From positions 186,001 to 250,000 of the forward strand of contig NZ_JABEQM010000003.1 of the NCBI RefSeq assembly GCF_014174155.1: DNA of 64,000 bases, in the 5' to 3' direction. Below the pieces are notes generated by a model. That model was not told where the DNA came from. It made no database searches and was given only the letters and a program-made list of their open reading frames with translations. The position numbers were made by a program, and so were the translations under genes. Positions 39,127 to 59,820 of the stretch are shown here, one piece after another. Position 1 is the first letter of the stretch, and every line of letters begins with the position of its first letter. This DNA is from Gluconacetobacter tumulisoli (GTDB lineage Bacteria > Pseudomonadota > Alphaproteobacteria > Acetobacterales > Acetobacteraceae).

Positions 39127-40323
39127 TCAGCTGACGGCGACATGGTCGTTATAGATGGAGGTTCCGTCCGGGCCGATCAGGCTGATATCGACGCCATCGC
39201 CCCGGGAGGTTTGCAGGATGCGCCAGGTCGGCGGGATCGTCACGCCGACAGACCCGGTAAAGGCCCGGGGCAAGCATTGGGTGATCATGCGAGCGTCCAC
39301 CCGCCCGAAGAAATGGTCGCGCCAGGCTGGATCCTGACCACCCATCGACAGATCCCAGCTCATGAAATCAAACGACGCCCATCCCTGGTTGTCGAGCCAG
39401 ACCTCCGACCAATAGTGCAGCGTCGGCGAGCGCCGATAGAGGAAATGTCCGCTGACCAGCCGGGCCGGGATGCCATGCGCGCGGCATAGCGCGACAAAAA
39501 ATGCCGATCCAAGCTGGCAATCGCAGCACCTGGCTTCGAGGACCCAGTCAAGGGGTGCGTCTATCCCGATCTGGTCATAATGTACCGGACCGGAAAGGAA
39601 CTCGTCGATCATGAAATCCCAGAAGGCCCGCACCGCGATGTCCGGCGCGGCATCTCCGCCCAGTCGGCGGGCAAGGGCCGCGATCGGATCGGAAAGCTTG
39701 ATCAATCCTTCATCCGGGCGCAGGTAAAGATCGCGATCGGGTGGATTCGCAGCGTCCGAGGCGGGTCGTGGACGGAAGCAGATCTCGGCCCCGATGGTGA
39801 CATCTTCCCCTGCCGCGGGCTGCACCTGCACGTCCAGGCGTCCATCCCCCAGGACGCAGGTTGCCCCGTGATCGGGACCATGGGGACGGATATCGAGAAA
39901 ATCGCATCGGTCACGGAGCGGCAGGGCCAATCTCAGACGTTTTGCTCTGCCCGGCGAGGTATTCCGGAAATTGTAGGTCCGCCGAAGGCTGAGCGTTACC
40001 GGCCCATCCGCCTTCGCGGCCAGGTCACCGACCAGTTGGCGGCTGGTCGTCACATAATGATTCTGCCAGAAATCATCGCGGCCGACAGTTCCGGCATGCT
40101 TAAGGGAATGCACGACCTCGACGGGGTCGAAAAAACGCCGGCCCGTCGGGTCGAGACGGACGCCAAGGCCGCATTCGATCCAGCGGTCCAGGGCCTCCTG
40201 CGCAGTGGTCCGGGCATGATCGGTATCGTCGCAAAACGCCCAGCCCAGCAGAAGCAGCGTGTCCAGAACGCGATCTTCATCGACGGTTCTGTATCGGTCT
40301 TCGAATGTCAAGGCTGTTGCCAT
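39127..40323 (-). CDS. Transglutaminase-like (papain-fold) protein
   Basis: A 398-residue cytoplasmic-looking protein. The transglutaminase core is in the C-terminal half: the Cys in CCDCQLGSAFFVALCRAHG, the His in TLHYWSEVWLD, and the Asp in GWASFDFMSW form the expected Cys-His-Asp triad order. The N-terminal ~200 residues are beta-rich with no clear family. Bacterial members are often peptidases, amidases or peptide-bond-forming enzymes. It lies between the SMR-like gene (116 bp) and the degenerate-lipoyl gene (208 bp) inside a glycan cluster, which is unusual. The substrate is unknown. Confidence 0.72.
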   Translation of the reverse strand: MATALTFEDRYRTVDEDRVLDTLLLLGWAFCDDTDHARTTAQEALDRWIECGLGVRLDPTGRRFFDPVEVVHSLKHAGTVGRDDFWQNHYVTTSRQLVGDLAAKADGPVTLSLRRTYNFRNTSPGRAKRLRLALPLRDRCDFLDIRPHGPDHGATCVLGDGRLDVQVQPAAGEDVTIGAEICFRPRPASDAANPPDRDLYLRPDEGLIKLSDPIAALARRLGGDAAPDIAVRAFWDFMIDEFLSGPVHYDQIGIDAPLDWVLEARCCDCQLGSAFFVALCRAHGIPARLVSGHFLYRRSPTLHYWSEVWLDNQGWASFDFMSWDLSMGGQDPAWRDHFFGRVDARMITQCLPRAFTGSVGVTIPPTWRILQTSRGDGVDISLIGPDGTSIYNDHVAVS

Positions 40324-40439: not shown

Positions 40440-40820
40440 CTACGTGGCGCGGGCCATCAGGACGACACCGGACACGATCACCACCAACCCAACGATCCGC
40501 ATCGGATGGATATTCTCGCCAAGAAAGATGATCCCGGCGAGGACGGTCAGTACGATACCGAATGCGACGCAGGGATAGGCCTGGGAGACGTCGATACGCG
40601 CCAGGACCAGAAGCCAGACGACGGCGCTCAGACCGAAGGCCAGCAATCCCAGGACGACCGGCACATTCAGCGCGATTACCGACATCGCTTCCCACAGGCC
40701 GGCCCTGTTCGCGATCGCGGCCTGGACCGCCCGGTCGGACATGCCCGTCTTCAGCAGGATCTGGGCGGAAGAGGACAGCAGCACGCTGACAAGTACAAGA
40801 CCAACGGTTCCGAATGTCAT
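40440..40820 (-). CDS. SMR/EamA-type small membrane protein (ArnE/ArnF-like)
   Basis: A 126-residue protein with four hydrophobic helices (GTVGLVLVSVLLSSSAQILL at the start, SQAYPCVAFGIVLTVLAGII and a final VGLVVIVSGVVLMAR). The pattern fits small-multidrug-resistance/ArnE-ArnF-like proteins that flip polyprenyl-phosphate-linked sugars. Its ATG overlaps the stop of the polytopic glycosyltransferase-like gene (ATGA). In that setting a lipid-linked-sugar flippase role is more likely than drug export. Confidence 0.78.
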   Translation of the reverse strand: MTFGTVGLVLVSVLLSSSAQILLKTGMSDRAVQAAIANRAGLWEAMSVIALNVPVVLGLLAFGLSAVVWLLVLARIDVSQAYPCVAFGIVLTVLAGIIFLGENIHPMRIVGLVVIVSGVVLMARAT

Positions 40821-42538
40821 GGCGCAGGGGCTCCCGGCACGGTGAAAAGACACAGGCGGCCAAATCGGGTTGCCTGGGGATGCGGATCGATTTGCGTGCA
40901 GTCATCGACCACATAGGCAATGCCATGATCCGCGGCATAGGACAGGCGTTGGGGCAAATTCCTCAATGTTCTCACCTCCGTCATCCGGGCCTGCCATGTC
41001 CGGAAATAGGCGGGCGCCCACATGACGGCCGCCCCCGCCTGGGAAAATACCCATGTCTGCCGGTGAGAAAAATACGGGAATACGATGGCTCCCTCGAACA
41101 GTTGCTCCTGGTCCGCACTGGTTCGGGGAAACATGCCCGTATCCCGCAAGATCCCAGGGGGGACGAGAAACAGGGCATCCGATGCCGTATGGACGCGGGC
41201 CCATTCACCCAGGGCCTGCCAGTCATTTCGCCGGTCGACATAGGCGCGGTCGGACGCCAGGGCGTGATAGATCCGCATTCCGTTGAACAGAACGACAGGC
41301 ACCAGCAGGGCCGGTGCCGCGTAGGTGCGCCACGAACCGGCCGAGAGCGGCCATGTCCGCCGCACCAGCAATATCGGAATGACCACCGGCATCAGGATCT
41401 TGGCCGTGCAGGACAGCAGGATAAGCAGCGGCGCCCAGACGAGACGATCCGTTTCGTTTCGGGAAAGGATCCAGCGGGTCGACAGGCCAGCGATTGCAGC
41501 CGCCGCCAGCAGATGTACCGTGGTCCCCGATCGCAGCAGATGGAGGTTCAGCAGCATGCGCGCATGGGTCGCGAAAGGAAGAAAGACGCCGACGATCCAG
41601 ACGGCGGCGGCCCCCCACAATGCGGCTGTCAGAAACGAACCGGGCACCCGCAGCATCTGCGCGGCGATCAGGCCGCAGCAGAAAATGCTCGCCAGAAGGC
41701 AGACCTCCCGAAAGACGGTGGTCCATATCAGGAAATGATCGGGAAAGAACGATATAAGATAAGCGATATAGTCGAAATCGAGCGGCGTTCCGGCGTAGGG
41801 ATTGGCCAGGATATTGCGGATGACGGGCGCTGCCAGAAGCGCGGAGATGGCAAGGCCTGCCCCCCCTTGCAGCAGGAGCGACGACCATGTCCATTTTCCC
41901 CGTCGCCACTGGGACCAGAGAATGAATGCAAGGGGAACCGCGGTCCAGACGGCGATGAAGGCGTTGATGAAGAACGTCACGCCATTCATTGCGAACGCGG
42001 CGGCGACCCGTCCCCGCGCGGCCCAGGCCAGGGCCAGCAGGGTCGTTCCATTTGCCAGTTCGGACTGCGTGAAGGTGTTGATCAGAAGCCCCCCGGCACC
42101 CGCGTCGGCGAAATCGCGCAACGTCGAGGACAAGGCGAGGAGCACCGTGAATGTCGCCTGTTCCTTCGTGCTTTCGATACCGAGAAGGCTGGCCCATGCC
42201 AGAAATCCGGAGAACAGAAGCATGCGCGACAGGATCTGGAATATGAACAGAATCGCGTAGACGTCCTGCCCGTGCACGCGGTCGGACAGCAATTGCCAGA
42301 AGCCGGACGAATAGTAGCGCAGGCTCTGTATAAACAGGTCGTTCGCGAATTGCGGTTCGTTATAAAGACCGGCCAGGATAGGAAGGTGATAGATATTATT
42401 CAATTGGCCGCCGACGTGCCCGGACAACGCCACCGAAAAGAACGCGCCGAACGAGACGATCGCGCACGCGACGCCCCATTGTGGGATGCGCCGTGCGCGC
42501 AGGAGTGCGGCACTCGGGGGGATGGCGGACGCCGTCAT
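40817..42538 (-). CDS. Polytopic membrane glycosyltransferase-like protein (GT-C type candidate)
   Basis: A 573-residue protein with about 12 membrane segments and a C-terminal periplasmic domain (WQALGEWARVHTASDALFLVPP, DDCTQIDPHP). That topology matches polyprenyl-phosphate-sugar-dependent GT-C enzymes, although the family motif is weak. The start at 42538 is one base after the UbiA-gene stop (TGA-C-ATG) and its own stop overlaps the SMR-like start, so the three genes are one translational unit. It probably transfers a sugar from a polyprenyl phosphate donor onto a glycan in the periplasm. Confidence 0.65.
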   Translation of the reverse strand: MTASAIPPSAALLRARRIPQWGVACAIVSFGAFFSVALSGHVGGQLNNIYHLPILAGLYNEPQFANDLFIQSLRYYSSGFWQLLSDRVHGQDVYAILFIFQILSRMLLFSGFLAWASLLGIESTKEQATFTVLLALSSTLRDFADAGAGGLLINTFTQSELANGTTLLALAWAARGRVAAAFAMNGVTFFINAFIAVWTAVPLAFILWSQWRRGKWTWSSLLLQGGAGLAISALLAAPVIRNILANPYAGTPLDFDYIAYLISFFPDHFLIWTTVFREVCLLASIFCCGLIAAQMLRVPGSFLTAALWGAAAVWIVGVFLPFATHARMLLNLHLLRSGTTVHLLAAAAIAGLSTRWILSRNETDRLVWAPLLILLSCTAKILMPVVIPILLVRRTWPLSAGSWRTYAAPALLVPVVLFNGMRIYHALASDRAYVDRRNDWQALGEWARVHTASDALFLVPPGILRDTGMFPRTSADQEQLFEGAIVFPYFSHRQTWVFSQAGAAVMWAPAYFRTWQARMTEVRTLRNLPQRLSYAADHGIAYVVDDCTQIDPHPQATRFGRLCLFTVPGAPAP

Positions 42539-42539
42539 G

Positions 42540-43979
42540 TCAGATCGAGGCCAGGACGACGAGGATCGAGCATCCGACGGCATAGCGGCAGGTTCTGTCG
42601 CGCAAGGCCCAGATGACCGGATCGTCGTGCATCTGGCGTCGATGGGCGACCAGAAGGGCCCGTGCTAGGATGAACAGGAGAATGGGCGACAGGACCCAGA
42701 GAATGTACGGGTGACTATACATGGCCCTGACGGAATCGGAGGTAATATACAGGGTGAAGACCGTCACGGCATTGGTCCCGCAGGCCGCGGCCAGGGCCGC
42801 CAGGATCACGAGATCGTCCTTGCGGTATGCCCGGCTGCTCGATTCCGGAAGATTGCCGTCCAGTCGAACGAGAAGTTCGGTATATCTCTTGATCAGGGCA
42901 AGAGAGGTGAATACGAAGAGCGAGAATGCCAGGATCCATTCGGACAGGAAGATGCCTGTCGCGGCCGCGCCCCCGATCAGCCTGGCCGTGTATAAAAGTG
43001 CAAGACCGACGACGTCTCCAAGCATCTTGCGCTTGAGCCAGAAGGAATAGCCCGTCGTCAGGGCAACGTAGCCCGCCAGTGTGATCGAAAACACCCATGG
43101 CAGGACAAGACAGGCGGCAATGGCGCAAAGGCCCAGTATCGGAATAGCCGACAGGGCGGAATGGAGCGACAGGGCCCCACTTGCCAATGGACGTCGTCTT
43201 TTGGAGGGGTGCAGACGGTCGTCGCCCAGGTCGACCATATCATTCAGCAGATATATGGCGGACGCGGTGACGCAGAAGGCAAGGAACGCGGCGCAGCTGG
43301 CGGCCAGCGTTCCGATGTGGAAAGCGTGTGCGGCAAGTGCCGGCAGAAACACCAGCACGTTTTTCGCGTATTGATGGACGCGAAGGGCACGCGCCCATAT
43401 TTTTATCGTGTGACCCGGCTTTTCGATTATATCGACATTTTCCAGCTCGTTCAGCTTCCTGAGCGACCGGCCGTCGAGCCCGATGGCATGGCGGCGGCGG
43501 GCATGACGCCAGATCGCCAGATCATGGCGATGGTTGCCGACATAGTCGAAGCCCTGGTCGCCGAATGCGTCGACCAGGACGCGCGCCTTGTTGTCGCCCG
43601 CGAGATTGTGGTGCTTGTTGCTGGCGAACAGCCCGTCGAAATTGCCCAGATGGTCAGCCACCGCATGTGCAAGGCGCTCGTTCGAGGCTGTGGCGAGATA
43701 GACCGGCCGACCCTCCATCCGGGCTTCGTCGATCAGGTTCAGGACGGCCTGATGGTAAGGCAGCGTCGAGGCATCGATTTCGGCGCGCGACGCGACCTCC
43801 TGTTTCAAATGGGACCGGCCGCGACATAAGGAGAGAAGCAGGAGGGGCAGGGTCGCCGGATTTCGCCCGACGCAGTTGAAAAAGGATTCTATGAGAAGAT
43901 CCGACGCTATGAGCGTGCCGTCCAGATCGACAACCAACGGATGCGAATGGGTTTGACCCAGGGACACTGCTAAATTCAT
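42540..43979 (-). CDS. HAD-UbiA fusion, polyprenyl-phosphate phosphoribosyltransferase (DPPR synthase)-like
   Basis: A 479-residue fusion. Residues 1-190 form a HAD phosphatase domain (VVDLDGTL with D18/D20; GFDYVGNHRHD near 145). The rest is a UbiA-type membrane prenyltransferase with LNDMVDLGDDRLHPSKRRRP and YSFWLKRKMLGDVVGLALLY. Both motifs match decaprenyl-phosphate 5-phosphoribose synthases. Such enzymes join PRPP to polyprenyl phosphate; the fused phosphatase would remove the 5-phosphate. The product would be polyprenyl-phosphoryl-ribose or, after epimerisation by DprE1/E2 enzymes (not seen here), arabinose. GAGG lies six bases before ATG. It is the first gene of a three-gene cassette. 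Confidence 0.8.
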   Translation of the reverse strand: MNLAVSLGQTHSHPLVVDLDGTLIASDLLIESFFNCVGRNPATLPLLLLSLCRGRSHLKQEVASRAEIDASTLPYHQAVLNLIDEARMEGRPVYLATASNERLAHAVADHLGNFDGLFASNKHHNLAGDNKARVLVDAFGDQGFDYVGNHRHDLAIWRHARRRHAIGLDGRSLRKLNELENVDIIEKPGHTIKIWARALRVHQYAKNVLVFLPALAAHAFHIGTLAASCAAFLAFCVTASAIYLLNDMVDLGDDRLHPSKRRRPLASGALSLHSALSAIPILGLCAIAACLVLPWVFSITLAGYVALTTGYSFWLKRKMLGDVVGLALLYTARLIGGAAATGIFLSEWILAFSLFVFTSLALIKRYTELLVRLDGNLPESSSRAYRKDDLVILAALAAACGTNAVTVFTLYITSDSVRAMYSHPYILWVLSPILLFILARALLVAHRRQMHDDPVIWALRDRTCRYAVGCSILVVLASI

Positions 43980-44397: not shown

Positions 44398-44703
44398 CTA
44401 TGTCACCTCGAAATCGACCAGGATATCGGTTGCCGCCGCGTCGCCGTCAGGCAACGGCTTATCCGCGCTGTCCGAGAAGAGCGCCAGGCGCTGGCCGACG
44501 GCGCACCAGTCCCCGGGTTCGGCGCGTATTTCGCGCAAAATTCCGGCCTGACCGGCACGGACCTCGACCACCGCCTTGTGGGTTTCCAGTTCGACGATCA
44601 GGTCACCCGGTGCAAATGTCGATCCCACGTCGCCGTGCCATTCCAGGATACGGATTTCCTCGACGCCCGGTACTGCGGCGGGAACTGACAATTGATAGAT
44701 CAT
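44398..44703 (-). CDS. Free-standing lipoyl (E2-type carrier) domain protein
   Basis: A 101-residue single-domain protein. It opens MIYQLSVPAAVPGVEEI, with the lipoylation site ELETHKAVVEV placing the modifiable Lys at residue 43, and GDWCAVGQRLALFS after it. This is the barrel-sandwich carrier of 2-oxoacid dehydrogenase complexes, but the catalytic E2 acyltransferase domain and E1-binding domain are absent. AGGAGG lies seven bases before ATG. It follows the E1 beta gene by 28 bp, so it should receive the acyl or hydroxyalkyl group made by E1. What takes the group next is the open question. Confidence 0.85.
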   Translation of the reverse strand: MIYQLSVPAAVPGVEEIRILEWHGDVGSTFAPGDLIVELETHKAVVEVRAGQAGILREIRAEPGDWCAVGQRLALFSDSADKPLPDGDAAATDILVDFEVT

Positions 44704-44731
44704 TATTATCCTCCTTGTTTTTTGTGTGAGA

Positions 44732-45721
44732 TCAACGCGCCAGAAGCGCGCGGATGGCGTCCGCCACGCGGGGGGCGTCGGGAATGCAGGCGGCCTCCAG
44801 CACCGGATTCGACGATACCGGGGCGGGAAGGGCGCCAATGCGGGTCCACGGTTTCGGGCCGGTGCGTTCGAACGTCTGGATTGCGACCTCGGTCCCGACG
44901 CCGCAAACGACCTGGCCCTCTTCAAGGGTCAGCAATCGGCCGGTCCGTTCGACGGAACCCGCGACGGTATCGATATCCAGCGGTGCGAGACTGCGCAGGT
45001 CGATGACATCGCAGGATATGCCGTCCTGCGCGACGATCTGCGCGGCGTCGAGCGCGACGCGCATCATGTAGCCGTGGCTGACGACGGTCACGTCGGATCC
45101 GTCGCGTCGTATGCAGGCCTTGCCGAACGGAACGAGGGTTTCCGTAACCGGCGTGTCGCCGGGTGTCGGGAACAACCGTTTGTGGTCGATATAGACCACC
45201 GGCCCGTCGCACCGCAAAGCCGTCTTCATCAGGCCGTAGGCATCGGCGGGCGTCGAGGGAGCGACGACCCGCAGGCCCGGCACGCTCATCAGCCATGCCT
45301 CGATGCATTGGGAATGGGCGACGCCTTGTCCCTGGGCACCCGCCGTGGTCTTGACCACCATCGGCGCGGACAGGCCGCCCGCCGTCTTGTAGCGGAGCTT
45401 GGCCGCGTAATTGATCAGGGCGTCGAAGCCGAGCATCAGGAAATCCATGTAGGTGATGCTGACCAACGGACGATAGCCCGCCGCCGCGGCGCCGGCGGCG
45501 ATTCCAATGGTCGCGGCCTCGGCGACCGGCGTGTCGCGTATGCGATCCGGGCCGAATATCTTGTAAAGCCCATCGAATTCCCGATAGGAGCCGCCGAAGG
45601 CGCCGACGTCCTGGCCGAGAATCAGGACATGGGGGTCCAGCGTCATTTCCTCGCGGACGGCACGTGTCACGGCTTCGCGGAAAAACATCCGGGCCATGGC
45701 GGGTTTCTGTTCATACAACAT
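44732..45721 (-). CDS. 2-oxoacid dehydrogenase E1 beta-type subunit
   Basis: A 329-residue transketolase-like subunit. It has MARMFFREAVTRAVREEM, HVLILGQDVGAFGGSYREF, and the ThDP-activating Glu68 in DTPVAEAATIGIAAGAA. The C-terminal transketolase domain has VIDLRSLAPLDIDTV and the closing EEGQVVCGVGTE. With E1 alpha it forms the ThDP enzyme that decarboxylates 2-oxoacids, or cleaves ketose phosphates in some secondary-metabolite systems. The start at 45721 overlaps the E1 alpha stop by 11 bp. The pair is embedded in a glycan operon, not beside E2/E3 genes. Confidence 0.9.
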   Translation of the reverse strand: MLYEQKPAMARMFFREAVTRAVREEMTLDPHVLILGQDVGAFGGSYREFDGLYKIFGPDRIRDTPVAEAATIGIAAGAAAAGYRPLVSITYMDFLMLGFDALINYAAKLRYKTAGGLSAPMVVKTTAGAQGQGVAHSQCIEAWLMSVPGLRVVAPSTPADAYGLMKTALRCDGPVVYIDHKRLFPTPGDTPVTETLVPFGKACIRRDGSDVTVVSHGYMMRVALDAAQIVAQDGISCDVIDLRSLAPLDIDTVAGSVERTGRLLTLEEGQVVCGVGTEVAIQTFERTGPKPWTRIGALPAPVSSNPVLEAACIPDAPRVADAIRALLAR

Positions 45722-46646
45722 GCCGCAGAGCCTCCTGTGCCGTCGGGTAGGGCGATGCCTCGGCGTAGGCCATGGCATGAGCGATGTCCGTCGCCGCGTC
45801 CTGGCGCATCTGCTCCAGCTGCGCGTCGTCCAGGGTGCCGTCCGCCTGCAGGGCGGCGGCATGGCGCCGTATCGGGCAATGGGTCTGCAGTTCGGCCAGT
45901 TCGGCGCGACTGCGGGTTTCCCGGGCCGTCGTGGAATGCGACCGCAGGCGAATGGACGTGCACTCCAGGAAGGCCGGTCCCAGGCCGTCGCGGACATGGC
46001 GCACCGCGTCGTGTGCCGCCGCTGCGACGCCCTGTACGTCCAGTCCGTCGACCGTGCGGGCCCACATTCCGAACGTCGCGCCCAGGTCCGACAGGTTGGC
46101 AACCGCCAACGCCGCGTCGCGGGCGGTCGATACGGAAAGCTGGTTGTTGTTGCAGACGAACAGGATCGGCAGTTTCCATTGGGCTGCCATGTTCAGGGTC
46201 TCGTGCAGCGCGCCAGCGCCGCAGGCCCCGTCGCCGAACAGGATGGCGACGATGCCGCCATCGCCGTCCAGCTGCCTGGCCATGGCCACCCCGGCGGCGA
46301 TGCTGATATTGCCGCCGACGACGGCATGCGCGCCGAAAAAGCCCGCCTGCGGGTCGGACATGTGGCCGCGTCCGGCACGGCCCTGGTTCATGCCGCCGGA
46401 TTTTCCCAGCAGTTCCGCCATGACCCGTTCCGGTGCGACGCCGCGGGCCAGCGCCGGACCGATCGACCGTCCCCCGGTCAGCAACTGGTCGCCCGTCCCC
46501 AGCGCCGAGACCAGCCCGACGGCAACGGCCTCCTCGCCCGACGACAGCAACTGGAAACCGTGCTCCTTCCGGCGGGCCAGGGCGTCCTCGAACGCGCGGA
46601 TCATCAGCATGGCGCGCAGGGCGCCCACGGGATCGATATGGGTCAT
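45711..46646 (-). CDS. 2-oxoacid dehydrogenase E1 alpha-type subunit
   Basis: A 311-residue ThDP-binding subunit. The cofactor motif is GDG at 138-140 through NNN at 166-168 (FGDGACGAGALHE ... VCNNNQLSVST). The substrate-channel region RLRSHSTTARETR replaces the usual RGHSxxDP. It is slightly shorter than most PDH E1 alpha subunits (about 320-360). Its ATG overlaps the stop of the SGNH-like gene upstream (ATGA). Acetoin-type and 2-oxoacid dehydrogenases, and two-carbon transferases in natural-product clusters, use the same pair of subunits; which applies here cannot be read from the sequence. Confidence 0.88.
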   Translation of the reverse strand: MTHIDPVGALRAMLMIRAFEDALARRKEHGFQLLSSGEEAVAVGLVSALGTGDQLLTGGRSIGPALARGVAPERVMAELLGKSGGMNQGRAGRGHMSDPQAGFFGAHAVVGGNISIAAGVAMARQLDGDGGIVAILFGDGACGAGALHETLNMAAQWKLPILFVCNNNQLSVSTARDAALAVANLSDLGATFGMWARTVDGLDVQGVAAAAHDAVRHVRDGLGPAFLECTSIRLRSHSTTARETRSRAELAELQTHCPIRRHAAALQADGTLDDAQLEQMRQDAATDIAHAMAYAEASPYPTAQEALRHVV

Positions 46647-47503
46647 TGCGGTTTCAGTCCCATCAATCTGATCATGCCCGACGTCAGGAGGCCGAGGCTT
46701 TCCTGCACTCCCCTCCGCCGGACCGCATGAATAAGCTTGTCCATCGCCTGGCCCGGCGGGATCTGCCCCTTCAGGACCTGTCGGATCAGCCAGCCGACAT
46801 GGTTATCCTGGACCGAATCCGTGATGGTGGAGACGACCTGCCGCCGCCGGCCCCTGCCCATGGTCATCAGATTGCCGGGAACGAGGTCCGGCGCGGGCCG
46901 CAGGGCGGGCTGGCTGGCGGTGATCGTCTGCTTGACGCGTTCCTGGGCTTCGAACGGCAAGGCGGCGTCCAGGGCATTTTCCACGATGCCCAGCGCCAGG
47001 GCGTGGCCCGCCAGTTCGGCGGCCGCGTGACCACCCATGCCGTAATCCGTCTGTACCCGGATGGCGCCGACATCGCTGAAGATCCTGTCCAGATCGACGA
47101 CGAAGACGCCATATGCGCGTGACAGCTCCGTCGCCAGCAGGTTCAGCCGCCGGATGCGTATCAAGGTCGCCTCGGCGCGATCGGGGTCCCATTGTCCTGG
47201 GATGTGGCGGAAGATGGTAGCGACAAGGACCGGGTCGCCGCCATCGCACAAGGCGGCATAGTCTCGGCGAAGCCGTTGTTCGACCTCGCTCCAGGGGGTA
47301 TCCAGCTGGTCCAGCTCCGGCGTCAGCGAGGCGATGCGGATCGTGCCGGGTGGCGCTGCCCGCAGGCTGTCGAAATCCACCGCGGTGGAACAGGCCAATG
47401 TCGCCCCCACGTCGCCAAGCCCGGCCTGCAGCAGGTGGGCAGCCCTGGCCGCGGCGGTCTGTTCGGCCCGGGAGGTGAAGAACGCAACGGAAATCCGTGT
47501 CAT
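46643..47503 (-). CDS. SGNH-like protein with altered catalytic block
   Basis: A 286-residue protein related to the other two SGNH-like proteins of the locus (VLVATIFRHIPGQW, then RIRRLNLLATELSRAYGVFVVDLDRI). At the place where the others have DxxH, this one reads DYGMGGHAA, so the Asp-His spacing is changed, and no GDSx serine block is seen. It may not be a working hydrolase. A C-terminal extension of about 70 residues is unique (KQTITASQPAL onwards). Its start overlaps the GT2 stop (ATGA) and its stop overlaps the E1 alpha start, so it is translationally locked between sugar transfer and E1 chemistry. Confidence 0.6.
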   Translation of the reverse strand: MTRISVAFFTSRAEQTAAARAAHLLQAGLGDVGATLACSTAVDFDSLRAAPPGTIRIASLTPELDQLDTPWSEVEQRLRRDYAALCDGGDPVLVATIFRHIPGQWDPDRAEATLIRIRRLNLLATELSRAYGVFVVDLDRIFSDVGAIRVQTDYGMGGHAAAELAGHALALGIVENALDAALPFEAQERVKQTITASQPALRPAPDLVPGNLMTMGRGRRRQVVSTITDSVQDNHVGWLIRQVLKGQIPPGQAMDKLIHAVRRRGVQESLGLLTSGMIRLMGLKPQ

Positions 47504-48558
47504 CGGAAGACCCCCTGATCGGCATGGCGGGCGTGGGACGGTGCGGCGCATGTCGCCAGATAGGCCGCGCGTACCGCGTCACGGCCTTCCAGGCCCTCAT
47601 ATTCCGCGGCGATGCTCGCCAGTTGCGGCAGAGAAAGGATCCGGGAAGTCTCGAGAATGGTCTTCTCGTCGCTGAGGCTCTGCCAGAGCAGCGGCAGCAG
47701 CGCCACGTCGGCGCGGGGATGGGCCGTATAGAAGATATCTTCCCAGTTCTTGTCTTCCAGGGGGTCGCGCCAGCCGCTGCGATGGATCATGTGATAGCTG
47801 CGGGCGGTACTCGCCGCCATTTTCCCGCCGGCCCGGCAGAGCCGCAGAGCCAGTTCGCGATGTTCGTTGATCGTGAGGTCGGGATGAAAACCGCCGGATT
47901 CCAGGAACGCCTCGCGGACAACCGACTGGTTGGCGCCGGCGGCCGCAGCCCACAGGACATCGCAATCCTCCTCGGTTCTCAGGGCTTCCATTTCCAGTTC
48001 ATAGAGCTTGCGTGGCCCATATCCCGGATAGACCCCGGGCTGCGCACGGGCGTCGATTTCGTCGAACCGGGTCCAGATCTGCGTGCGTGTGACCCGGGCC
48101 CGGTCCAGTTCGGCAGGGGACATGCGGGCCACCCGATCTTCGTGGCCGGGCTGGGGCGTGCCGGCCTCGGGGTCGCGGAATGGCCGCGTGCACCTCAGGT
48201 GAAAATTCTCGCCGCGGACAATCAGGTTCGGACGCAGGCGGTGGCATTGCAGGTGCCGGGCGACCAGGTCGGGCCCTGCCAGGGTATCGCCGTCCAGGAA
48301 GATCAGGATATCCCCGCTGGCCTGCGCGGCCCCGGCGTTCGCGGCGGCCGAGCGGCCGGCGGGCTTCGCATGGTGGACGGCCACGAGATCGAGGTTGAGG
48401 GGGGCCTCGGCGATGACGGTTGCCGTGTGGTCGGTCGATCCGTCGTTGACGACCACGACCTCGGCGGCTTCGGTTTGACAGGCCAGGGACGTCAGGGTCA
48501 GACGCAGACGGTCTGCCTCGTTCATGGAGCGGATCACGACGGTCGCCTGCATGTTCAT
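47500..48558 (-). CDS. Family 2 glycosyltransferase
   Basis: A 352-residue GT-A enzyme opening MQATVVIRSMNEADRLRLTL, with VVVNDGSTDHTATV, the metal-binding LIFLDGDTLAGPD, and WAAAAGANQSVVREAFLESG on the acceptor side. Soluble or peripheral; transfers a sugar to a lipid-linked or other acceptor in the cytoplasm. Its ATG overlaps the stop of the upstream SGNH-like gene and its stop overlaps the next SGNH-like start. The first Met (48558) gives the tightest overlap; a second Met two codons later is possible. Confidence 0.85.
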   Translation of the reverse strand: MNMQATVVIRSMNEADRLRLTLTSLACQTEAAEVVVVNDGSTDHTATVIAEAPLNLDLVAVHHAKPAGRSAAANAGAAQASGDILIFLDGDTLAGPDLVARHLQCHRLRPNLIVRGENFHLRCTRPFRDPEAGTPQPGHEDRVARMSPAELDRARVTRTQIWTRFDEIDARAQPGVYPGYGPRKLYELEMEALRTEEDCDVLWAAAAGANQSVVREAFLESGGFHPDLTINEHRELALRLCRAGGKMAASTARSYHMIHRSGWRDPLEDKNWEDIFYTAHPRADVALLPLLWQSLSDEKTILETSRILSLPQLASIAAEYEGLEGRDAVRAAYLATCAAPSHARHADQGVFR

Positions 48559-49352
48559 GCCTCCCTGGCAGTGTCGAATACGCCCAGGTCGGCGAGCACG
48601 CGGACGGCTTCCTCCGCGACGCGCCTGTACCCTTCGGGCGTTAAATGAAATGTATCGAGTTTCATCCTGTCCGCGCCATGACGGGCAATGATGGTGTCCA
48701 CGTCCACAATGGATATGCCGGTCGCTTCGGAAAGTTCCACGAGGGCAAGGTTGAAACGTCGTACGCGTGTCGAAAATGTTTCGTCCAGGCCCAGATAGCA
48801 ATGGACCCCGTCGCCCGGGATGACCGACGACAGATTATGGATCAGTATCGGAACGTCTCGTTCCTGGCGCAGTTTTTCGATAATTTTCGTAAAATTTTCC
48901 ATCGACTGCTCAACGGTCAGAAATCCGGTCGGCGCGAATTCGGATCGAAGCCATCGCCGGTCGGCGTCCGTCCAGGTGGCGGCGTCGGCAGGATACAGGA
49001 AATATCCCTCTGTCCGATGGCGCACGAGTTCGGTTGCCACGTCCGGAAGGATCGACAGGAAGACGGCATCGGCAGGTGTTGTGAAAAGTGCTGAGCTGAA
49101 TTGGCTCGTCGTCGGATAATTGCCCAGCGGCAGGTCACGCCCCGCCATGGAGGCCGGAACGGTACCGGTTGCGGATAGAACGGCGTCGGAACGTGTCAGG
49201 GTTTCATGGCGAAGCCGCATCGACAGGCCGGGATAGGACCCGCGCAGGATCTCATTGATGCCGTTCCATTGTACCGTGCCACCGATCCGGCAGGAATGCA
49301 GGGCATCATGGACATCGACATTGCCTTTGGCGAAGAGGGTGAGCCGCTTCAT
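48555..49352 (-). CDS. SGNH-like protein, first of the coupled chain
   Basis: A 265-residue protein, best conserved of three related SGNH-like proteins here: VPILIHNLSSVIPGDG, RRFNLALVELSEATGISIVD and the C-terminal DxxH motif KLDTFHLTPEGYRRV, which corresponds to block V of SGNH hydrolases. The N-terminus (LTLFAKGNVDVHDALHS) lacks the usual GDSx serine. SGNH enzymes act as O-deacetylases, acyltransferases or esterases on glycans. The start at 49352 is chosen because the homologous region begins there. The stop overlaps the GT2 start. 129 bp upstream is the flippase gene. Confidence 0.68.
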   Translation of the reverse strand: MKRLTLFAKGNVDVHDALHSCRIGGTVQWNGINEILRGSYPGLSMRLRHETLTRSDAVLSATGTVPASMAGRDLPLGNYPTTSQFSSALFTTPADAVFLSILPDVATELVRHRTEGYFLYPADAATWTDADRRWLRSEFAPTGFLTVEQSMENFTKIIEKLRQERDVPILIHNLSSVIPGDGVHCYLGLDETFSTRVRRFNLALVELSEATGISIVDVDTIIARHGADRMKLDTFHLTPEGYRRVAEEAVRVLADLGVFDTAREA

Positions 49353-49480: not shown

Positions 49481-51016
49481 TCATGCGGTCCTGCTGCGTG
49501 CCGTGGTGATCCGTCGGAACGAGGCGAGCAGCGAGGATCGTTCCGAACTGGTCAGGCTCCCCGTCCAGACGACGATGTAGAACGACACGATGGAGATCGC
49601 CAGCATCAGCACGGCGATCGCGGCGCCGTTCTCGAACAATGCCGCCATAAGGGCAAGCAGAGCGACTGCCGACATCGGCGCGATATATCGAACCGTTCCG
49701 CCCAGCGCGGGGTAAAACCGGACACCGGCCCGGATGCGGATCATGCAGTCCAGAAGGCTGCGGCACGCCCAGGCGACGGCGGCGCCGGTCACGCCGAAGA
49801 AATGGAGGAGCAGCAGGAGGAGAGGAATGTAGAGGGCGACCTCCACGATCGACAGCGTGGCGTTGAAATCCGGGCGGCCGATGCTGTCGATAAACCCGGC
49901 GGCGACCCCGTCGATGCCGAAAAAGAATACGCCAAGGCTCAGGAATTTCATCAATGTCGAGCTGTTCCTGGCAAAATCGTCCCCGACCCAGAAGGACAGG
50001 ATGTCATGGCTGAAGAGCGCGCTGAGCAAGCAGAGCGGGAACAGCAGCGTCGCGACTGTCAGGACGCTGGTACGATACAGCGTGATGGTCGTGGCGGCGT
50101 CGTTGCGCCAGGATGCGGCCATGGCGGGAAAGGCGCTTCCGGTCACGGCGATGGTGATCATGGACAATCGGGCGACGACGTCGAAGGGGGTGGTGTAATA
50201 GCTGGTCACCGCACTGGACAGGACGGACGCGATCATGAACCGGTCCATGTAGGACAGGATGGGGAATGTCAGGTTGGAGACCGTCATCCACCCCCCGATC
50301 CGGAAAAGCGGTCGCAGGAGCCCGAATGACGGGCGCGCATGGCGCAATTGCGGCATGACGCGCAGGCACAGGCAGCCATAGGCGATGGTCATCGCCAGGC
50401 GGCAGAGCGCCAGCGTCATCATCACCCCGATCAGGCTGTCCCAGACCAGAAGGACCAGCAGGGGACCGACATAGTACATGACCGAAATGGGGATGTTGAT
50501 CAGGTTGGCCGGACGGAATGCCTGGTAGGCGGAAATGACGCCCCACATTGCCGCATTGGTCATGACCAGTGGGGCGGTGGCACAGAGTACCCACATCGCC
50601 AGCAGGGTTTGGGTCTGCAGGTCGGCCGGGATCTTCAGGCCGTGGTGAACCCAGACGGCGACCCCGGCCGCCGCGACGAGACCGCTGACCAGGCCGAAAA
50701 GGCCGAGTGTCAGGACGCCGGTGATCGTCAGGTCGGCGCTTTCCTGATGGCGACCGTCGGAAACGCGCTCCGCCACGGCCCGCGTCAGGGCGCGTCCCAG
50801 CCCGAAATCGAATATGCCGAACGTGCCGATCAGGGTCAGCGCGATCGTCAGGACCCCCCATCGGGCCAGTCCAAGCATGTCGATCAGCCGAGGCGTCACA
50901 AGCAGCGCGACGCCCACCGGTCCAATGCGTCCAAGCATGTTCCAGCCCGCGTTGGACACGAGATGCCGGGAAGGGGTCAGGGCGGCAAAAGTTCCGGGAA
51001 GCCTCGAGGAAGCCAT
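49481..51016 (-). CDS. Wzx-type polysaccharide flippase (MOP superfamily)
   Basis: A 511-residue protein with 12-14 membrane segments, starting with the loop and helix GWNMLGRIGPVGVALLVTPR and LGLARWGVLTIALTLIGTFG, typical of Wzx/RfbX translocases. It should move the undecaprenyl-diphosphate-linked repeat unit to the periplasm for the polymerase encoded at the right edge. It is followed by the SGNH-like/GT2/E1/lipoyl chain in the same direction. It is clearly different from the flippase at 2.1 kb. Confidence 0.83.
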   Translation of the reverse strand: MASSRLPGTFAALTPSRHLVSNAGWNMLGRIGPVGVALLVTPRLIDMLGLARWGVLTIALTLIGTFGIFDFGLGRALTRAVAERVSDGRHQESADLTITGVLTLGLFGLVSGLVAAAGVAVWVHHGLKIPADLQTQTLLAMWVLCATAPLVMTNAAMWGVISAYQAFRPANLINIPISVMYYVGPLLVLLVWDSLIGVMMTLALCRLAMTIAYGCLCLRVMPQLRHARPSFGLLRPLFRIGGWMTVSNLTFPILSYMDRFMIASVLSSAVTSYYTTPFDVVARLSMITIAVTGSAFPAMAASWRNDAATTITLYRTSVLTVATLLFPLCLLSALFSHDILSFWVGDDFARNSSTLMKFLSLGVFFFGIDGVAAGFIDSIGRPDFNATLSIVEVALYIPLLLLLLHFFGVTGAAVAWACRSLLDCMIRIRAGVRFYPALGGTVRYIAPMSAVALLALMAALFENGAAIAVLMLAISIVSFYIVVWTGSLTSSERSSLLASFRRITTARSRTA

Positions 51017-51188
51017 GAAACATCATCCAGTTCTGACAAGTTCGGTGCCCGTCGTAGACAATCAGGGTCGAAATAGTGGTGGACCGCTTCCCCGCCAGCG
51101 CGTCAGTTCGATGGAAAGGCCTGTCGAGAAAAGGCGTCGCATCATGGAACTCCTTGAGGGGATTGCGTGTCCTGGGGCCGGCCGGATG

Positions 51189-52253
51189 TCACGACAGGAT
51201 GCGGGGCGGGGCGCTTTCCCTGATTTTTGTCATCTTGCTGAGACGCAGGCGCAGCGGCGCATCGTAATATTTTTCCACGAACGGAGATGCGGCGGTGACG
51301 AGAACGGAAAAGACCAGAAGGTTTTCCGTCCCGGTAAGGCCGATCTTTCGCAAAAGATACGTGCAGATGAAGATCAGCGGGAAATGTATGCCATATAGCG
51401 GATAGGAGATGTCCCCCAGGAAGGCGGCCAGGCGATGAAAGCGGGACGGAATTTCGAATGCCCGCCCGCATGCCACCAATGTGGGACACAGAAGAAGCGC
51501 GTAGACGATGTCGAGTGTCTGTCCCAGGCCCTGCCGGAAGGGCGTGCAGCACATCACGACGATCAATATCATCGGGATGAACGCGATATGGGTCCCGATA
51601 CGCCGCGTCCTGATCAGCCGGTTGATCAGGACGCCTGCGCTGAAGGCGTAGATCGACCTGAATATGCCGCCGGAAAACGTTGGCCAGGCCCAACCGATAT
51701 TCAGCGTGCCGAACTGGAGCGCCGTGGCGACGATGCCCACGCCGGCAAGGAAGGCAATCGACACGATGCTTCTGGTGGGCAGCCTGAACAGGATCGTCGC
51801 GTATAATATATTGACCATCAGTTCGAAGAACATCGACCATTGCGAGCCGTTCAGCGGGAATATTTCAGCTATATTCAAGGGGGAGGGGAGCATGAACAGG
51901 TTGAACAGAAACGAAATGGTCATGCTCTCCACCGTCAGGTCCGGCTGATTCTGAAGCCACAGGTTCCCGACGGATTTTATGATGCCCAGCACCAGTCCGA
52001 TCAGGAAGATCGGATAGAGGCGGATGATTCTCTTTTCGACGAATTCCCGGGTCGAAAGGGTGGTTTCGAGCCGATGCCTGTAGGACTGGTCGATGACCGC
52101 GCCGCTAAGGGCGAAGAACAGGTCGACGGCAACATATCCATGGGCGGACGGTGACGGGCCGACGCGGCCGGCGTGATACAGCATGACCAGAATTGCGGCG
52201 ACCCCGCGCATCGCGTCGAAAGCGTACAGACGGCGAGTGGGAGGGTGGGACAT
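51189..52253 (-). CDS. Acyltransferase 3 family membrane protein
   Basis: A 354-residue protein with about ten membrane segments and the family N-terminus YAFDAMRGVAAILVMLYHAG (essential His), then VAVDLFFALSGAVID and KRIIRLYPIFLIG. It transfers acyl groups, usually acetyl, onto a sugar at the inner membrane. Part of the exopolysaccharide run, 48 bp after a GT2 gene and 172 bp before the flippase gene. Confidence 0.87.
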   Translation of the reverse strand: MSHPPTRRLYAFDAMRGVAAILVMLYHAGRVGPSPSAHGYVAVDLFFALSGAVIDQSYRHRLETTLSTREFVEKRIIRLYPIFLIGLVLGIIKSVGNLWLQNQPDLTVESMTISFLFNLFMLPSPLNIAEIFPLNGSQWSMFFELMVNILYATILFRLPTRSIVSIAFLAGVGIVATALQFGTLNIGWAWPTFSGGIFRSIYAFSAGVLINRLIRTRRIGTHIAFIPMILIVVMCCTPFRQGLGQTLDIVYALLLCPTLVACGRAFEIPSRFHRLAAFLGDISYPLYGIHFPLIFICTYLLRKIGLTGTENLLVFSVLVTAASPFVEKYYDAPLRLRLSKMTKIRESAPPRILS

Positions 52254-52300
52254 GCTGGAGCTCGATCTTCCGGTCTGTGTGATATCTGCGTCGAAAGGGA

Positions 52301-53152
52301 TTATGGTGCGGCGCCCGCTGGCGACGGCGCACGGTATCCGGCAAGCCGGCCGAAAAATGTCATGACGTAATATCTGGCGATCGGAAAATCGAATTTTGCG
52401 AAATTGACCAGGGCTCCGCCGATCGGCCGCAGCAGGAAGCGGGCCACTGTCGGCAGGTCGCAGCGATTCTTGCGCATGACGCGCCCCATGCCGAGTCCGT
52501 ACGGGAATGCCCGCGACACATTCAGGGCCACCGGCTTGTCGGGATGAATGATCCGCAGCCGGTGGATGTAGTGCCCGGACTTGCCGTGCGACAGCATGCG
52601 CAGGGCGAGGTCCTGTCCCTCGCCGGATCCGAAGCGCGTTCCCGGCCCGAGCGTTTCGTCAAATCCGCCGACGGCATCGAAAATGGTGCGGCGGATGAAC
52701 AGGTTGAACTCGATCAGGCAGGTCCAGACGGTCTGGGTGTCGATGTCGCTGTCATGTTTCAGCCATCGGCCCGACCGCCCCGGAATGCCGCCCGGCAGGA
52801 TGACCGACCCCGTGAGGAAGCCGATTCCGGGATCGTTCCGGAAAAACTGGTCGACCTGCATCAGGACGTCCGGGGTGTATTCGCAATCGTCGTCGGGGAA
52901 GGTGATGATGTCGCCGGTCGCATGCCGTGCCCCCAGGTTTCGGGCGTGGTTGCACAGGCGCACCGCGCTGCGCAGGTGAAGGATGGTCAGATGGCCGGCG
53001 AATTCTGCAATGACGGGATCGAGACGGCTGTCCTCGTTCTGGTCCACGATAATGATTTCGAACGATCGAACGGCCTGCCGGGTCAGGGACAGCAGAAGAG
53101 CCCGAACTTCGTCGGTGCGCCCCAGGGTCGGCACGATGAGGGAAAAGCGCAT
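52301..53152 (-). CDS. Family 2 glycosyltransferase
   Basis: A 283-residue GT-A enzyme: FSLIVPTLGRTDEVRALL, IIIVDQNEDSRLDPVIAEF, the nucleotide-metal site TFPDDDCEYTPD, and acceptor-side GGFDETLGPGTRFGSGEGQD. The DDD metal motif and GEGQD block resemble rhamnosyl- or glucosyltransferases of exopolysaccharide clusters. Lies 26 bp after another GT2 gene. The specificity is not assignable. Confidence 0.86.
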   Translation of the reverse strand: MRFSLIVPTLGRTDEVRALLLSLTRQAVRSFEIIIVDQNEDSRLDPVIAEFAGHLTILHLRSAVRLCNHARNLGARHATGDIITFPDDDCEYTPDVLMQVDQFFRNDPGIGFLTGSVILPGGIPGRSGRWLKHDSDIDTQTVWTCLIEFNLFIRRTIFDAVGGFDETLGPGTRFGSGEGQDLALRMLSHGKSGHYIHRLRIIHPDKPVALNVSRAFPYGLGMGRVMRKNRCDLPTVARFLLRPIGGALVNFAKFDFPIARYYVMTFFGRLAGYRAPSPAGAAP

Positions 53153-53177
53153 GGCGTATCGTCCGGAAATGGGGTGT

Positions 53178-54068
53178 CTACAAGGTCAGTATGCGTTCCG
53201 GGGTAATGCGGCCGCGCAGGATGTCCGCAAGGGCAAGGCCATTGCCGATGAGGCGTCCCCGGCGATCGACATAGGGTTCCGGCCGCAGGCTGAAGACCAG
53301 GTTCATCGCGATATTGCGTCCCACGCTGCGCAACGTGTGGTCCCAGGGAAACGAGCCCTTGCGGGAGAGGTAGATCGGATTTGCGACCTGCGAATATCCC
53401 AGGCGCCGGCCGGGGGTGCGTCCGGTCTTCGTGCCCATGTGAATGCCCTTGGCGCGATTGACCTTGACGATGCGGCCATGCCGTCCCAGGCGCCGGGAAA
53501 AATCGATATCCTCGTACCAGGCATAAAGCGGCAGGCGTTCGTCGAAGCGGATGCCATGGCGCCTGATTTCGGACATGCGGAAGGCCATGTTGCAGCCATA
53601 GCTGCTCCACACGGTCTCGACCGGCGGCAGGTTCGGGGTGTCGTTGATCCTGGGGTCGGCCAGCATCGCCAGGGCGGTATCGGCCGAAATGCCCGGTCCC
53701 TTGGCGCCGTCGGCAAGGACCCGCCCGGTTGCGGCGGAAATGGTCGGATCGCTCTGGAACGCCTGGACGCAATGGAGCAGGTAATCCCGGTCCGGAATGA
53801 AATCGTCGTCGAAGAAGACGATCAGGTCGGTGTCATTGGCGTTGTCCAGCAGGACATTGCGTTGGTGGGGGGCGCCCATCGGCCCGTGCCGCAGAGCGAG
53901 GTCGTCGGCCTCGATCAATCCCGCTGCGTCGGACGCACGTGCCGTGCAGACGACGATCCGCTGTGCGGGATAGCTCTGGTTCCGCAGTTCCTCGACGGTT
54001 TTGCGCAGAATGGCGGGACGTCCGCAACTGGCGATGGCAATCGTGACGGTCAGGGAGGTCTTCATCAT
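53178..54068 (-). CDS. Family 2 glycosyltransferase
   Basis: A 296-residue GT-A enzyme: VTIAIASCGRPAILRKTVEE, IVVCTARASDAAG, the metal site VFFDDDFIPDRDYL, and YAWYEDIDFSRRLGRHG on the acceptor side. Its ATG overlaps the stop of the preceding GT gene (ATGA), so these two are translated together. It acts in sequential assembly of the lipid-linked repeat. Confidence 0.86.
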   Translation of the reverse strand: MMKTSLTVTIAIASCGRPAILRKTVEELRNQSYPAQRIVVCTARASDAAGLIEADDLALRHGPMGAPHQRNVLLDNANDTDLIVFFDDDFIPDRDYLLHCVQAFQSDPTISAATGRVLADGAKGPGISADTALAMLADPRINDTPNLPPVETVWSSYGCNMAFRMSEIRRHGIRFDERLPLYAWYEDIDFSRRLGRHGRIVKVNRAKGIHMGTKTGRTPGRRLGYSQVANPIYLSRKGSFPWDHTLRSVGRNIAMNLVFSLRPEPYVDRRGRLIGNGLALADILRGRITPERILTL

Positions 54069-55258
54069 ACGGTTCCGGCTTGCGGGTAGACGGTCGGATG
54101 CCTGTGCGGCACCGGGGAAGGGGATGACGCGGCGCGAACGCGCGCCGACGACAGGAGATCGCGCGAAAGCGCGACATGCCGCGCGACGTAGGCGCGGGAA
54201 TTCAGGCTGTCGCGCATCCGTTGCTGCGCATGGGCGACCATCGTGGCCTGGGCGGCCGGATCCGCCGCCAGTTCGGTGATGGCGCGCGCCAGGGCCGGTG
54301 CGTCGCCGACCGGCACATAGCGGATCGCGTCGTCGCCGAAATAATGGCGCAGCCCCCCCACGTCGGTGGCGATGACCGGCACCCCGCGCGCCGTCGCTTC
54401 CTGAATGGCCGTGATGCCCGACGCATGCTGGTTGGGACCGACCGGCACGACGACCAGGTCCGCCTGGTCGTACAGATCGAACAGCTCCGTATTGTTCGAC
54501 AGCGTCGCCAGCGTCACATGTGCCGCCGTGGCAAGCGTCCGGCGTGCCGCACGGTCGGTGGTCGCGACGGTGACCTGGCAGGGAAGGTCCGACGTCGCCT
54601 GCAGCAGCGTGGTCCAGTCGCGGTGCCGGTCATTGCCCAGGGACAGGACGCGGACCGGCGTGCCCGGTGCCGGACTGTGCGGGGGGCGGGCAATCATCTC
54701 GTCGATCCTGATGCCGAATTCCATCAGCACCACGCGCTGGTCGGGAAACAGACTTGCCGCCTGGGCCATGTTGCAGGGGGACAGGAAGGTCAGGATATCA
54801 GCCCGGGACAGGAGATTGCGGAACACGAAGCGATTTTTCCGCGATTCCGTCGACCAGCGATCGATCAGCCAGACGCTTTGCGCGATCGTCCGGGGATGCC
54901 GGCGCCGCGGAAAGAGGCGCAGCAGCAACTGAACCGCCAGGGACTGGGATTCGGTATGGGTCCAGACGACGTCGCTTGCGAAGATGGCGGCACGGTTTCG
55001 CCAGGCATGAATGAAATCGAAGCCCAGCAGCAGGCGTACGGAATAGCGGACGAGGCGGCCGGGAACCCCTTCCGGCGCGTCTTCGGACTGGGTGACGGTG
55101 AAACCGGGTTCGGAGGCGCGCAGATAGCCGTATGCGTATTCCTCATTCAGGCCGAGGATGCGTCCCTCCTGCCACCGCGCATGCCATGTCGTGGCCCCAT
55201 AGCCGTAGCTGAGTTGCACGAAGGCGCGTATGGGCTGGCCGGCGTCATTCATCGCCAT
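54065..55258 (-). CDS. GT-B glycosyltransferase (family 4-like)
   Basis: A 397-residue GT-B enzyme. The C-terminal donor domain has VRVLSLGNDRHRDW, LYDQADLVVVPVGPNQHASG and the nucleotide-sugar loop TAIQEATARGVPVIATDVGG. The N-terminal domain is divergent, with a GYGATTWHARW sequence. The start at 55258 is set by GGAAAGGA six bases upstream, giving 20 bp after the secreted-protein gene; the longer frame would overlap it. It belongs to the same leftward exopolysaccharide run. Confidence 0.82.
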   Translation of the reverse strand: MAMNDAGQPIRAFVQLSYGYGATTWHARWQEGRILGLNEEYAYGYLRASEPGFTVTQSEDAPEGVPGRLVRYSVRLLLGFDFIHAWRNRAAIFASDVVWTHTESQSLAVQLLLRLFPRRRHPRTIAQSVWLIDRWSTESRKNRFVFRNLLSRADILTFLSPCNMAQAASLFPDQRVVLMEFGIRIDEMIARPPHSPAPGTPVRVLSLGNDRHRDWTTLLQATSDLPCQVTVATTDRAARRTLATAAHVTLATLSNNTELFDLYDQADLVVVPVGPNQHASGITAIQEATARGVPVIATDVGGLRHYFGDDAIRYVPVGDAPALARAITELAADPAAQATMVAHAQQRMRDSLNSRAYVARHVALSRDLLSSARVRAASSPSPVPHRHPTVYPQAGTV

Positions 55259-55278
55259 GTAATGTCCTTTCCGACAGG

Positions 55279-55713: not shown

Positions 55714-55782
55714 GGATGCCTCCGGCCTGCCGTAGTCGGGTGCCTGTCTGGTCGTGCTCATCGCCGCCCGATGCCTCCTGGC

Positions 55783-58005: not shown

Positions 58006-58081
58006 GGCATGATCTCTCGCGTCAGGGCAAAGGGGAGATGGCAATGGATCCGGGTGTCGAGGCGTCGTGCGAGGGCTGGTC

Positions 58082-59814: not shown

Positions 59815-59820
59815 GTGGCA

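Follow-up and report, generated by a model that had tools for sequence, protein, structure and literature searches.

What are the two subunits of a thiamine diphosphate (ThDP)-dependent E1 enzyme, together with a free-standing lipoyl protein, doing among the exopolysaccharide (EPS) genes of Gluconacetobacter tumulisoli? The locus lies in a 64,000-nucleotide stretch of contig NZ_JABEQM010000003.1, called the window below. A first-pass annotation of the window had seen genes for E1alpha, E1beta and a lipoyl protein tied to genes for a family 2 glycosyltransferase (GT2) and SGNH-like proteins, and had suggested that a lipoyl-bound acyl group is delivered to a glycan. In our computational follow-up these genes belong to a conserved set of nine with recognizable folds and motifs, and their E1 forms a separate clade. 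We give a probability of about one half to the reading that the set is a cassette dedicated to supplying acyl groups and transferring them, in the cytosol, to a sugar or glycoconjugate.

A conserved unit of nine genes

The unit encodes SGNH-A, a GT2 (GT2c), SGNH-B, E1alpha, E1beta, the lipoyl protein Lip, a second protein of lipoyl fold (Lip2), SGNH-C and a protein of transglutaminase fold (TGase), all on the minus strand of the window (Table 1). Along that strand the EPS genes are followed by SGNH-A, GT2c, SGNH-B, E1alpha, E1beta and Lip, then by the genes for a HAD-UbiA protein, a membrane protein and an EamA/SMR-type protein, and finally by TGase, Lip2 and SGNH-C. The tight junctions described in the first-pass annotation are confirmed on the sequence: ATGA overlaps join SGNH-A to GT2c (48558-48555), GT2c to SGNH-B (47503-47500) and SGNH-B to E1alpha (46646-46643), E1alpha and E1beta overlap by 11 bp, and Lip starts 28 bp past E1beta. 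The gene group it had outlined is real but incomplete, as Lip2, SGNH-C and TGase (37180-40323), members of the same unit, had been missed. SGNH-C starts with a GTG codon and overlaps Lip2 by 22 bp. Protein families in the window were assigned by Pfam scans and by bit scores of curated models against the model cut-offs, and transmembrane segments were predicted by hydropathy. No such segment was predicted in any of the nine proteins, which from their sequences look soluble and cytosolic, so that the cassette lends itself to reconstitution in vitro.

How widely is this arrangement kept? A profile of SGNH-C matched 16 of 397 genomes of the family, or 15 in eight genera once G022 was left out, its match covering only 41 residues and being taken as chance. 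The class sample gave two of 385, namely the own genome and G669 from another family; the order sample gave six of 150 and the phylum sample one of 299 (the own genome). These samples partly overlap. The family of G669 gave two of ten, where G1060 (78 % complete) matches only the shared SGNH part. In total, SGNH-C occurs in 16 genomes from nine genera and two families. An earlier single-sequence search with SGNH-B had hit four of 150 family genomes. A plasmid search with SGNH-C gave no match, and a wider search of genome contigs returned three loci: G. johannae (90 %), a metagenome-assembled genome (61 %) and a 55-residue match in Fulvivirga that we take as chance.

Gene content was determined for each genome by tblastn with the window proteins on fetched stretches. 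The first-pass annotation had called for a search for the same gene order in other genomes, and all nine genes are present in 13 of the 16 genomes with SGNH-C, split over two contigs each in G388 and G238. Eight cassette genes lie on two short contigs in G195, and six on a 4.5-kb contig in G167. The block from SGNH-A through GT2c, SGNH-B, E1alpha and E1beta to Lip lies unbroken on a single contig in 10 of these 13 genomes; G388 and G238 are consistent with it, and in G053 SGNH-A stands elsewhere within the cassette. Lip2 adjoins SGNH-C in all 16 genomes. A second GT2 gene sits beside TGase in five stretches (L054, L057, L059, L061 and L091). In G270 (L061 559-2391) Lip directly follows SGNH-B, the E1 genes between them being missing, and a transposase gene is found at 7364-8272 of the same contig.

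The E1 clade and the lipoyl proteins

E1alpha and E1beta are of the ThDP type, with a GDG...NN motif, and score below the cut-offs of the pyruvate dehydrogenase (PDH) E1 models TIGR03182 (269.9 vs 393.85 bits) and PRK11892 (274 vs 454 bits). The eight cassette rows of the 15-row E1alpha tree form a single clade (support 100/99), as do the ten cassette rows among 17 in the E1beta tree (100/100). The seven outgroup rows were the PDH-like and acetoin-like copies of the own genome, Aminobacter, two Streptomyces, Thermus and Azospirillum. Cassette-type E1beta, with 61-100 % identity to the window copy, is present in 15 of the 16 genomes with SGNH-C and in none of eight comparison genomes (seven Gluconacetobacter without a match to the SGNH-C profile, and G1060). 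Every other E1beta across these 24 genomes shares at most 43 % identity with that of the window.

The active site sets the clade apart as well. In work on G. stearothermophilus E1p, H128beta and H271alpha are implicated in the reductive acetylation of lipoate, and a slight clash is expected between the methyl group of the pyruvate adduct and Y102alpha (PMC2663715). Equivalents of both histidines are retained in the cassette rows that cover them, within AHSQ of E1beta and HST of E1alpha. The residue preceding a conserved arginine is glycine in all eight cassette E1alpha rows, and tyrosine (three) or histidine (four) in the outgroup; this glycine probably occupies the position of Y102alpha. The histidines of G[FT]xHL and RxHG are found in seven of seven outgroup rows and in none of the eight cassette rows. 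Because the lipoate-acylating histidines are kept and the pocket tyrosine or histidines are lost, we read the cassette E1 as an enzyme that probably still acylates lipoyl groups and takes a donor larger than pyruvate. The transfer of a two-carbon unit from a ketose, a precedent brought up by the first-pass annotation, finds no support, in that pocket residues lost from the cassette are still found in both Streptomyces rows, one of which is annotated E1-E2-ACP and has a Qnc-like gene order; the substrate itself is not decidable from sequence.

The placement of Lys43 of Lip within ETHK was read correctly at the outset, and the motif is kept in 12 of 12 rows. Biotin in place of lipoate was considered and rejected, the site being ETHKA and not of the AMKM type that carries biotin. 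LipA is encoded in five of five genomes tested. Lip2 is a paralogue of Lip. Its model (pLDDT 89.1) retrieves lipoyl and biotinyl domains with Foldseek (probability 1.00, best E 1.2e-3, TM about 0.7 to lipoyl domains by target length), and by sequence profile, without the model, lipoyl domains are hit at no better than E 0.31. The column of the lipoyl lysine is occupied in Lip2 by Leu43, invariant in 12 of 12 rows (MAFFT, HMMER), or, in an alternative alignment by hhalign, by the likewise invariant Arg58; under either alignment there is no lysine. Cys51 of the CPPxS motif is present in 12 of 12 rows and lies in a long loop beyond this column.

Candidates for acyl transfer

Which enzyme would receive the acyl group? 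The first-pass annotation had reported neither an E2 acyltransferase nor an E3, and both statements agree with our searches. Two E2 queries from the own genome matched only lipoyl parts when run against 21 partly overlapping cassette stretches, which total 336.5 kb and include the window. The E3-type genes of the own genome are on contigs C8, C6, C4 and C2, none of them in the window (relatives were not searched for E3), and its genes with a CAT domain are on contigs other than that of the window. Outside the cassette, the genome encodes a PDH-type E1/E2 locus, a CAT-type E2 with an E3, this second E2 being presumably of the 2-oxoglutarate dehydrogenase type, and an acetoin-type E1. The presence of PDH-type genes elsewhere argues that the cassette does not belong to central metabolism, and the lack of a CAT-type E2 argues that the acyl group is not released as acyl-CoA by the usual route.

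The description of the proteins as SGNH-like holds for the fold; the catalytic serine is absent from SGNH-A. This protein only just passes the Pfam GDSL_2 cut-off (33.3 vs 32.9 bits), and V, T or L stands at the nucleophile position in all 14 rows that reach the region, near-identical rows counted. SGNH-B, 86 columns of which align to the second half of SGNH-A, is more degenerate still, and both are apparent pseudo-enzymes. The second half of SGNH-A is shared with the SGNH half of SGNH-C (hhalign 99.3 %). The AlphaFold2 model of SGNH-C has a pTM of 0.81. In block I a cysteine replaces the catalytic serine (GxC) in 12 of 12 rows, and block V has its Asp-x-x-His as PDGxH, also in 12 of 12. The beta-rich N-terminal domain of SGNH-C aligns weakly to the lipoyl domain (hhalign 15 % and 5 %), and a viral lipoyl-type protein is a weak hit in Foldseek (E 0.063); this is no more than suggestive of a third lipoyl domain. 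The Cys-His-Asp triad of TGase is complete in 11 of 11 rows, and its profile matches 6g49 and 3isr.

Known exits of lipoyl-bound acyl groups are CoA and, in a few natural-product pathways, an acyl carrier protein (ACP). For the cassette we infer the lipoylation of Lip, the identity of the acyl group, the order of the hand-offs, the acceptor and the chemistry as follows. E1alpha/E1beta would use ThDP to decarboxylate a 2-oxo acid, probably one larger than pyruvate, and would reductively acylate the Lys43-lipoyl group of the free-standing Lip; the group transferred probably exceeds acetyl in size. The cysteine enzymes would take over this group, that is SGNH-C (Cys174/Asp426/His429), helped by Lip2, SGNH-A and SGNH-B, and/or TGase. 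They would attach it, through an ester or amide bond, to a sugar that the cassette GT2 handles; the product would enter gum-type EPS in Gluconacetobacter and another glycoconjugate elsewhere, and an E3 from another locus of the genome would re-oxidize Lip. Only tentatively do we go further and suggest a relay free of E2, in which the acyl group passes from Lip to the Cys-SGNH transferase acting with Lip2 (possibly via its cysteine) and TGase, and from there to the sugar, with neither CoA nor ACP nor a membrane acyl carrier; an acyl group larger than acetyl might then derive from a sugar acid, for example 2-ketogluconate, of which acetic acid bacteria produce much. If true, the joining of E1 and lipoyl proteins to glycosyltransferases and Cys-type acyl transfer would be a new exit for lipoyl-bound acyl groups, a new source of acyl groups for glycans, and a novel means of modifying a sugar polymer or glycoconjugate of bacteria.

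Several observations weigh against this reading. The nucleophilic role of Cys174, with Asp426 and His429, is a putative one, read from the alignment. Pfam gave no match for SGNH-C in the window, and its best Foldseek hit, 3mil_A (E 2.9e-4, probability 1.00), has low TM scores of 0.27/0.47. G270 has seven cassette genes and no E1, and cassette-type E1beta is absent from its assembly (96 % complete, 5 % contamination), so that this genome may have lost E1 or may not need it. GT2c of G247 (L053 8352-9360) matches in two overlapping frames, possibly through a frameshift, and may therefore be broken. In G325 and G669 the GT2 genes are the sole glycan link seen. Finally, a Thermus thermophilus plasmid (NZ_LR027520.1) carries a comparable E1-lipoyl trio beside TRAP transporter genes, and the trio alone is thus no proof of work on glycans.

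Precedents, alternatives and neighbouring genes

No description of the nine-gene cassette was found by title or abstract in the open-licence PMC literature. Its closest precedents are QncN/QncL/QncM and SclQ1-4, which supply glycolyl units for quinocarcin and scleric acid (PMC6335953). They share with the cassette an E1alpha, an E1beta and a lipoyl domain outside central metabolism and pass an acyl group to biosynthesis, but their E2-like acyltransferase domain and their ACP have no counterpart among the nine genes. The Qnc and Scl sequences themselves are not in our tree; the cassette E1 clade stands apart from the two Streptomyces rows, L094 (annotated E1-E2-ACP) and L095 (unannotated). With no E2-like domain, no ACP and an E1 clade apart from these rows, the cassette is not a member of this group. 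The first of the rows comes from a Streptomyces fungicidicus plasmid (L094 4075-9561, NZ_CP023408.1), where acsA, E1alpha, E1beta, E2 and ACP follow in a glycolyl-ACP-like order beside stress-protein genes. Among SGNH proteins, the glycan acyltransferases AlgX, PatB and DltD and the uncharacterized family GSCFA have the same fold (PMC9487903). Unlike these, the SGNH proteins of the cassette are tied to a lipoyl carrier and look cytosolic. Pfam GSCFA had no match in the three SGNH-C proteins scanned. The cysteine of GSCFA in the G-x-C position presumably resembles the SGNH-C motif.

Could the cassette be a non-canonical metabolic 2-oxoacid dehydrogenase, with SGNH-C as an odd E2 that transfers its acyl load to CoA or water and with GT2 genes nearby by coincidence? 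We consider this unlikely, though it survives best among the alternatives. Its E1/lipoyl core belongs to the dehydrogenase type, and like the pyruvate dehydrogenase complex the cassette has a ThDP E1alpha/beta and a lipoyl domain with ETxK; it differs in that neither a CAT E2 nor an E3 was found in the unit and in the loss of the pocket Tyr/His. Acetoin-type complexes also manage without a CAT-type E2, their E2 being a lipoyl-alpha/beta-hydrolase, and the second E1beta of the genome is followed by a gene that looks similar in translation. In the cassette, however, the lipoyl domain is free and any E2 role would fall to an SGNH protein, and cassette E1beta is 37-39 % identical to the acetoin-like copy. 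The Thermus trio (L093 3033-5214) consists of E1alpha, E1beta and a lipoyl protein, followed by the TRAP genes. It resembles the cassette in its 80-residue stand-alone lipoyl protein right after E1beta and in that no E2 is annotated within 4 kb, and differs in its transport setting, its place outside the cassette E1 clade and the lack of any annotated SGNH, GT2 or TGase. Against a metabolic role, E1 is accompanied by GT2c, SGNH-A, SGNH-B and TGase across nine genera and two families, the conserved set contains no transporter or catabolic gene, and E1 is coupled to SGNH-B and GT2c by the ATGA overlaps.

Is the acceptor a polymer at all? In the Gluconacetobacter stretches read, the cassette lies among EPS genes, adjoining or interleaved with Wzc, GT4 and GT2, and a Wzx homologue is present in five of the seven cassette genomes of this genus (G123 and G337 being the two without one in the stretches read). 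G060 has UbiA, the membrane protein, EamA and a GT87 nearby. The cassette is flanked by OmpA/photolyase and GT2/TrpE-like genes in G325 and adjoins BrkB and Rieske genes plus a GT2 in G669; flanking genes with Pfam matches are mostly unrelated to glycans in the last two genomes. The stretches read in these two yielded no homologue of the Wzx, Wzc or GT4 of the window, and the target may therefore be another glycoconjugate. Neither were Wzx, Wzc or GT4 among the frames scanned in the flanks of L055 (MarR, HpaB, amidohydrolase, transport permeases, MFS) and L059 (sulfotransferase, epimerase, gluconolactonase, S58), where one set comprised 10 frames, seven without family and several probably wrong. 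Wzx/Wzc as the defining neighbour is rejected, as neither was found in the G325 and G669 stretches or among the frames scanned in the flanks of L055 and L059; the constant glycan link is the GT2 and not a polymer export system. Of the original proposal, delivery of a lipoyl-bound acyl group to a glycan gains from the co-inheritance of E1 and lipoyl genes with SGNH and GT2 genes, from the lack of an E2 catalytic domain in the tested stretches and from the separate E1 clade; EPS is a candidate acceptor. In G356 (L059 1937-3241) a sulfotransferase-like gene adjoins SGNH-A.

The GT2s, TGase and acyl-lipoyl might instead modify a protein, which would suit nine proteins that all look cytosolic and the missing Wzx and Wzc homologues in G325 and G669. 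We regard this as improbable, given the EPS setting in Gluconacetobacter described above and the fact that no conserved substrate protein was seen. Quite improbable, too, is a carboligation in which the E1 builds a branched or higher-carbon sugar from a keto sugar and an acyl or aldehyde unit, with Lip serving oxidation or release. The opened pocket (Tyr/His to Gly) would fit, and the E1-type ThDP enzymes AviB1/AviB2 of avilamycin probably act in this way; but such a reaction would need neither a conserved lipoyl protein nor the retained lipoate-acylation histidines, and the nine conserved genes include no sugar dehydratase or ketoreductase. That duplicated PDH subunits landed by chance in a polysaccharide operon is hardly credible despite the likeness of the E1 and lipoyl genes to PDH parts, since the separate clade, the shared changes in the pocket motifs and the co-inheritance (15/16 vs 0/8) reject an ordinary PDH duplicate.

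Table 1. Features of the cassette and its surroundings in the window
Feature	Position	Strand	Support
SGNH-A, SGNH fold, block I Ser replaced (KGN[VTL]D), block V His retained	48555..49352	-	Pfam GDSL_2 8.8e-8
GT2c, glycosyltransferase family 2	47500..48558	-	PF00535 Glycos_transf_2 1e-18; kept across cassettes
SGNH-B, degenerate SGNH paralogue	46643..47503	-	no Pfam match; hhalign to SGNH-A 97.6 %
E1alpha (ThDP), separate clade, altered pocket residues	45711..46646	-	PF00676 E1_dh 5.7e-58
E1beta, separate clade	44732..45721	-	PF02779 Transket_pyr 2.1e-36; PF02780 Transketolase_C 1.7e-29
Lip, 101-aa stand-alone lipoyl protein, Lys43 in ETHK	44398..44703	-	PF00364 Biotin_lipoyl 1.9e-11
Lip2, lipoyl fold without lipoyl Lys, invariant CPPxS Cys51	38550..38918	-	hhalign to Lip 97.6 %; model; Foldseek
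SGNH-C, beta-rich N-terminal domain and SGNH domain (GxC[DE], PDGxH)	37180..38571	-	model, alignment
TGase, transglutaminase fold, C269/H303/D319	39127..40323	-	PF01841 1.3e-15
HAD-UbiA polyprenyl-phosphate pentosyl-type transferase (PRK08238)	42540..43979	-	NF006088 603 bits, cut-off 351
588-aa membrane protein	40817..42583	-	hydropathy; DUF6798 28.4 bits, cut-off 26.9
EamA/SMR-type small membrane protein	40440..40853	-	PF00892 5.3e-8
Gum-type EPS genes, upstream	49481..59566	-	Pfam and curated-model matches
Wzx	49481-51016	-	
Acyltransferase-3	51189-52253	-	
GT2	52301-53152	-	
GT2	53178-54068	-	
GT4	54065-55261	-	
Wzc-like	55783 to about 58035	-	
Sugar-phosphate transferase	58082-59566	-	

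The three genes between Lip and TGase (40440-43979) resemble a polyprenyl-phosphate pentose module, in which the 588-residue protein is possibly a GT-C type enzyme and the EamA/SMR-type protein a possible flippase of a lipid-linked sugar; such genes are near the cassette in some genomes only. At the two ends of the region, a sodium:solute symporter (SSF) gene on the plus strand (35584-37131) is convergent with SGNH-C, and a BBP2-type beta-barrel porin gene, also on the plus strand (59815-61266), adjoins the sugar-phosphate transferase gene.

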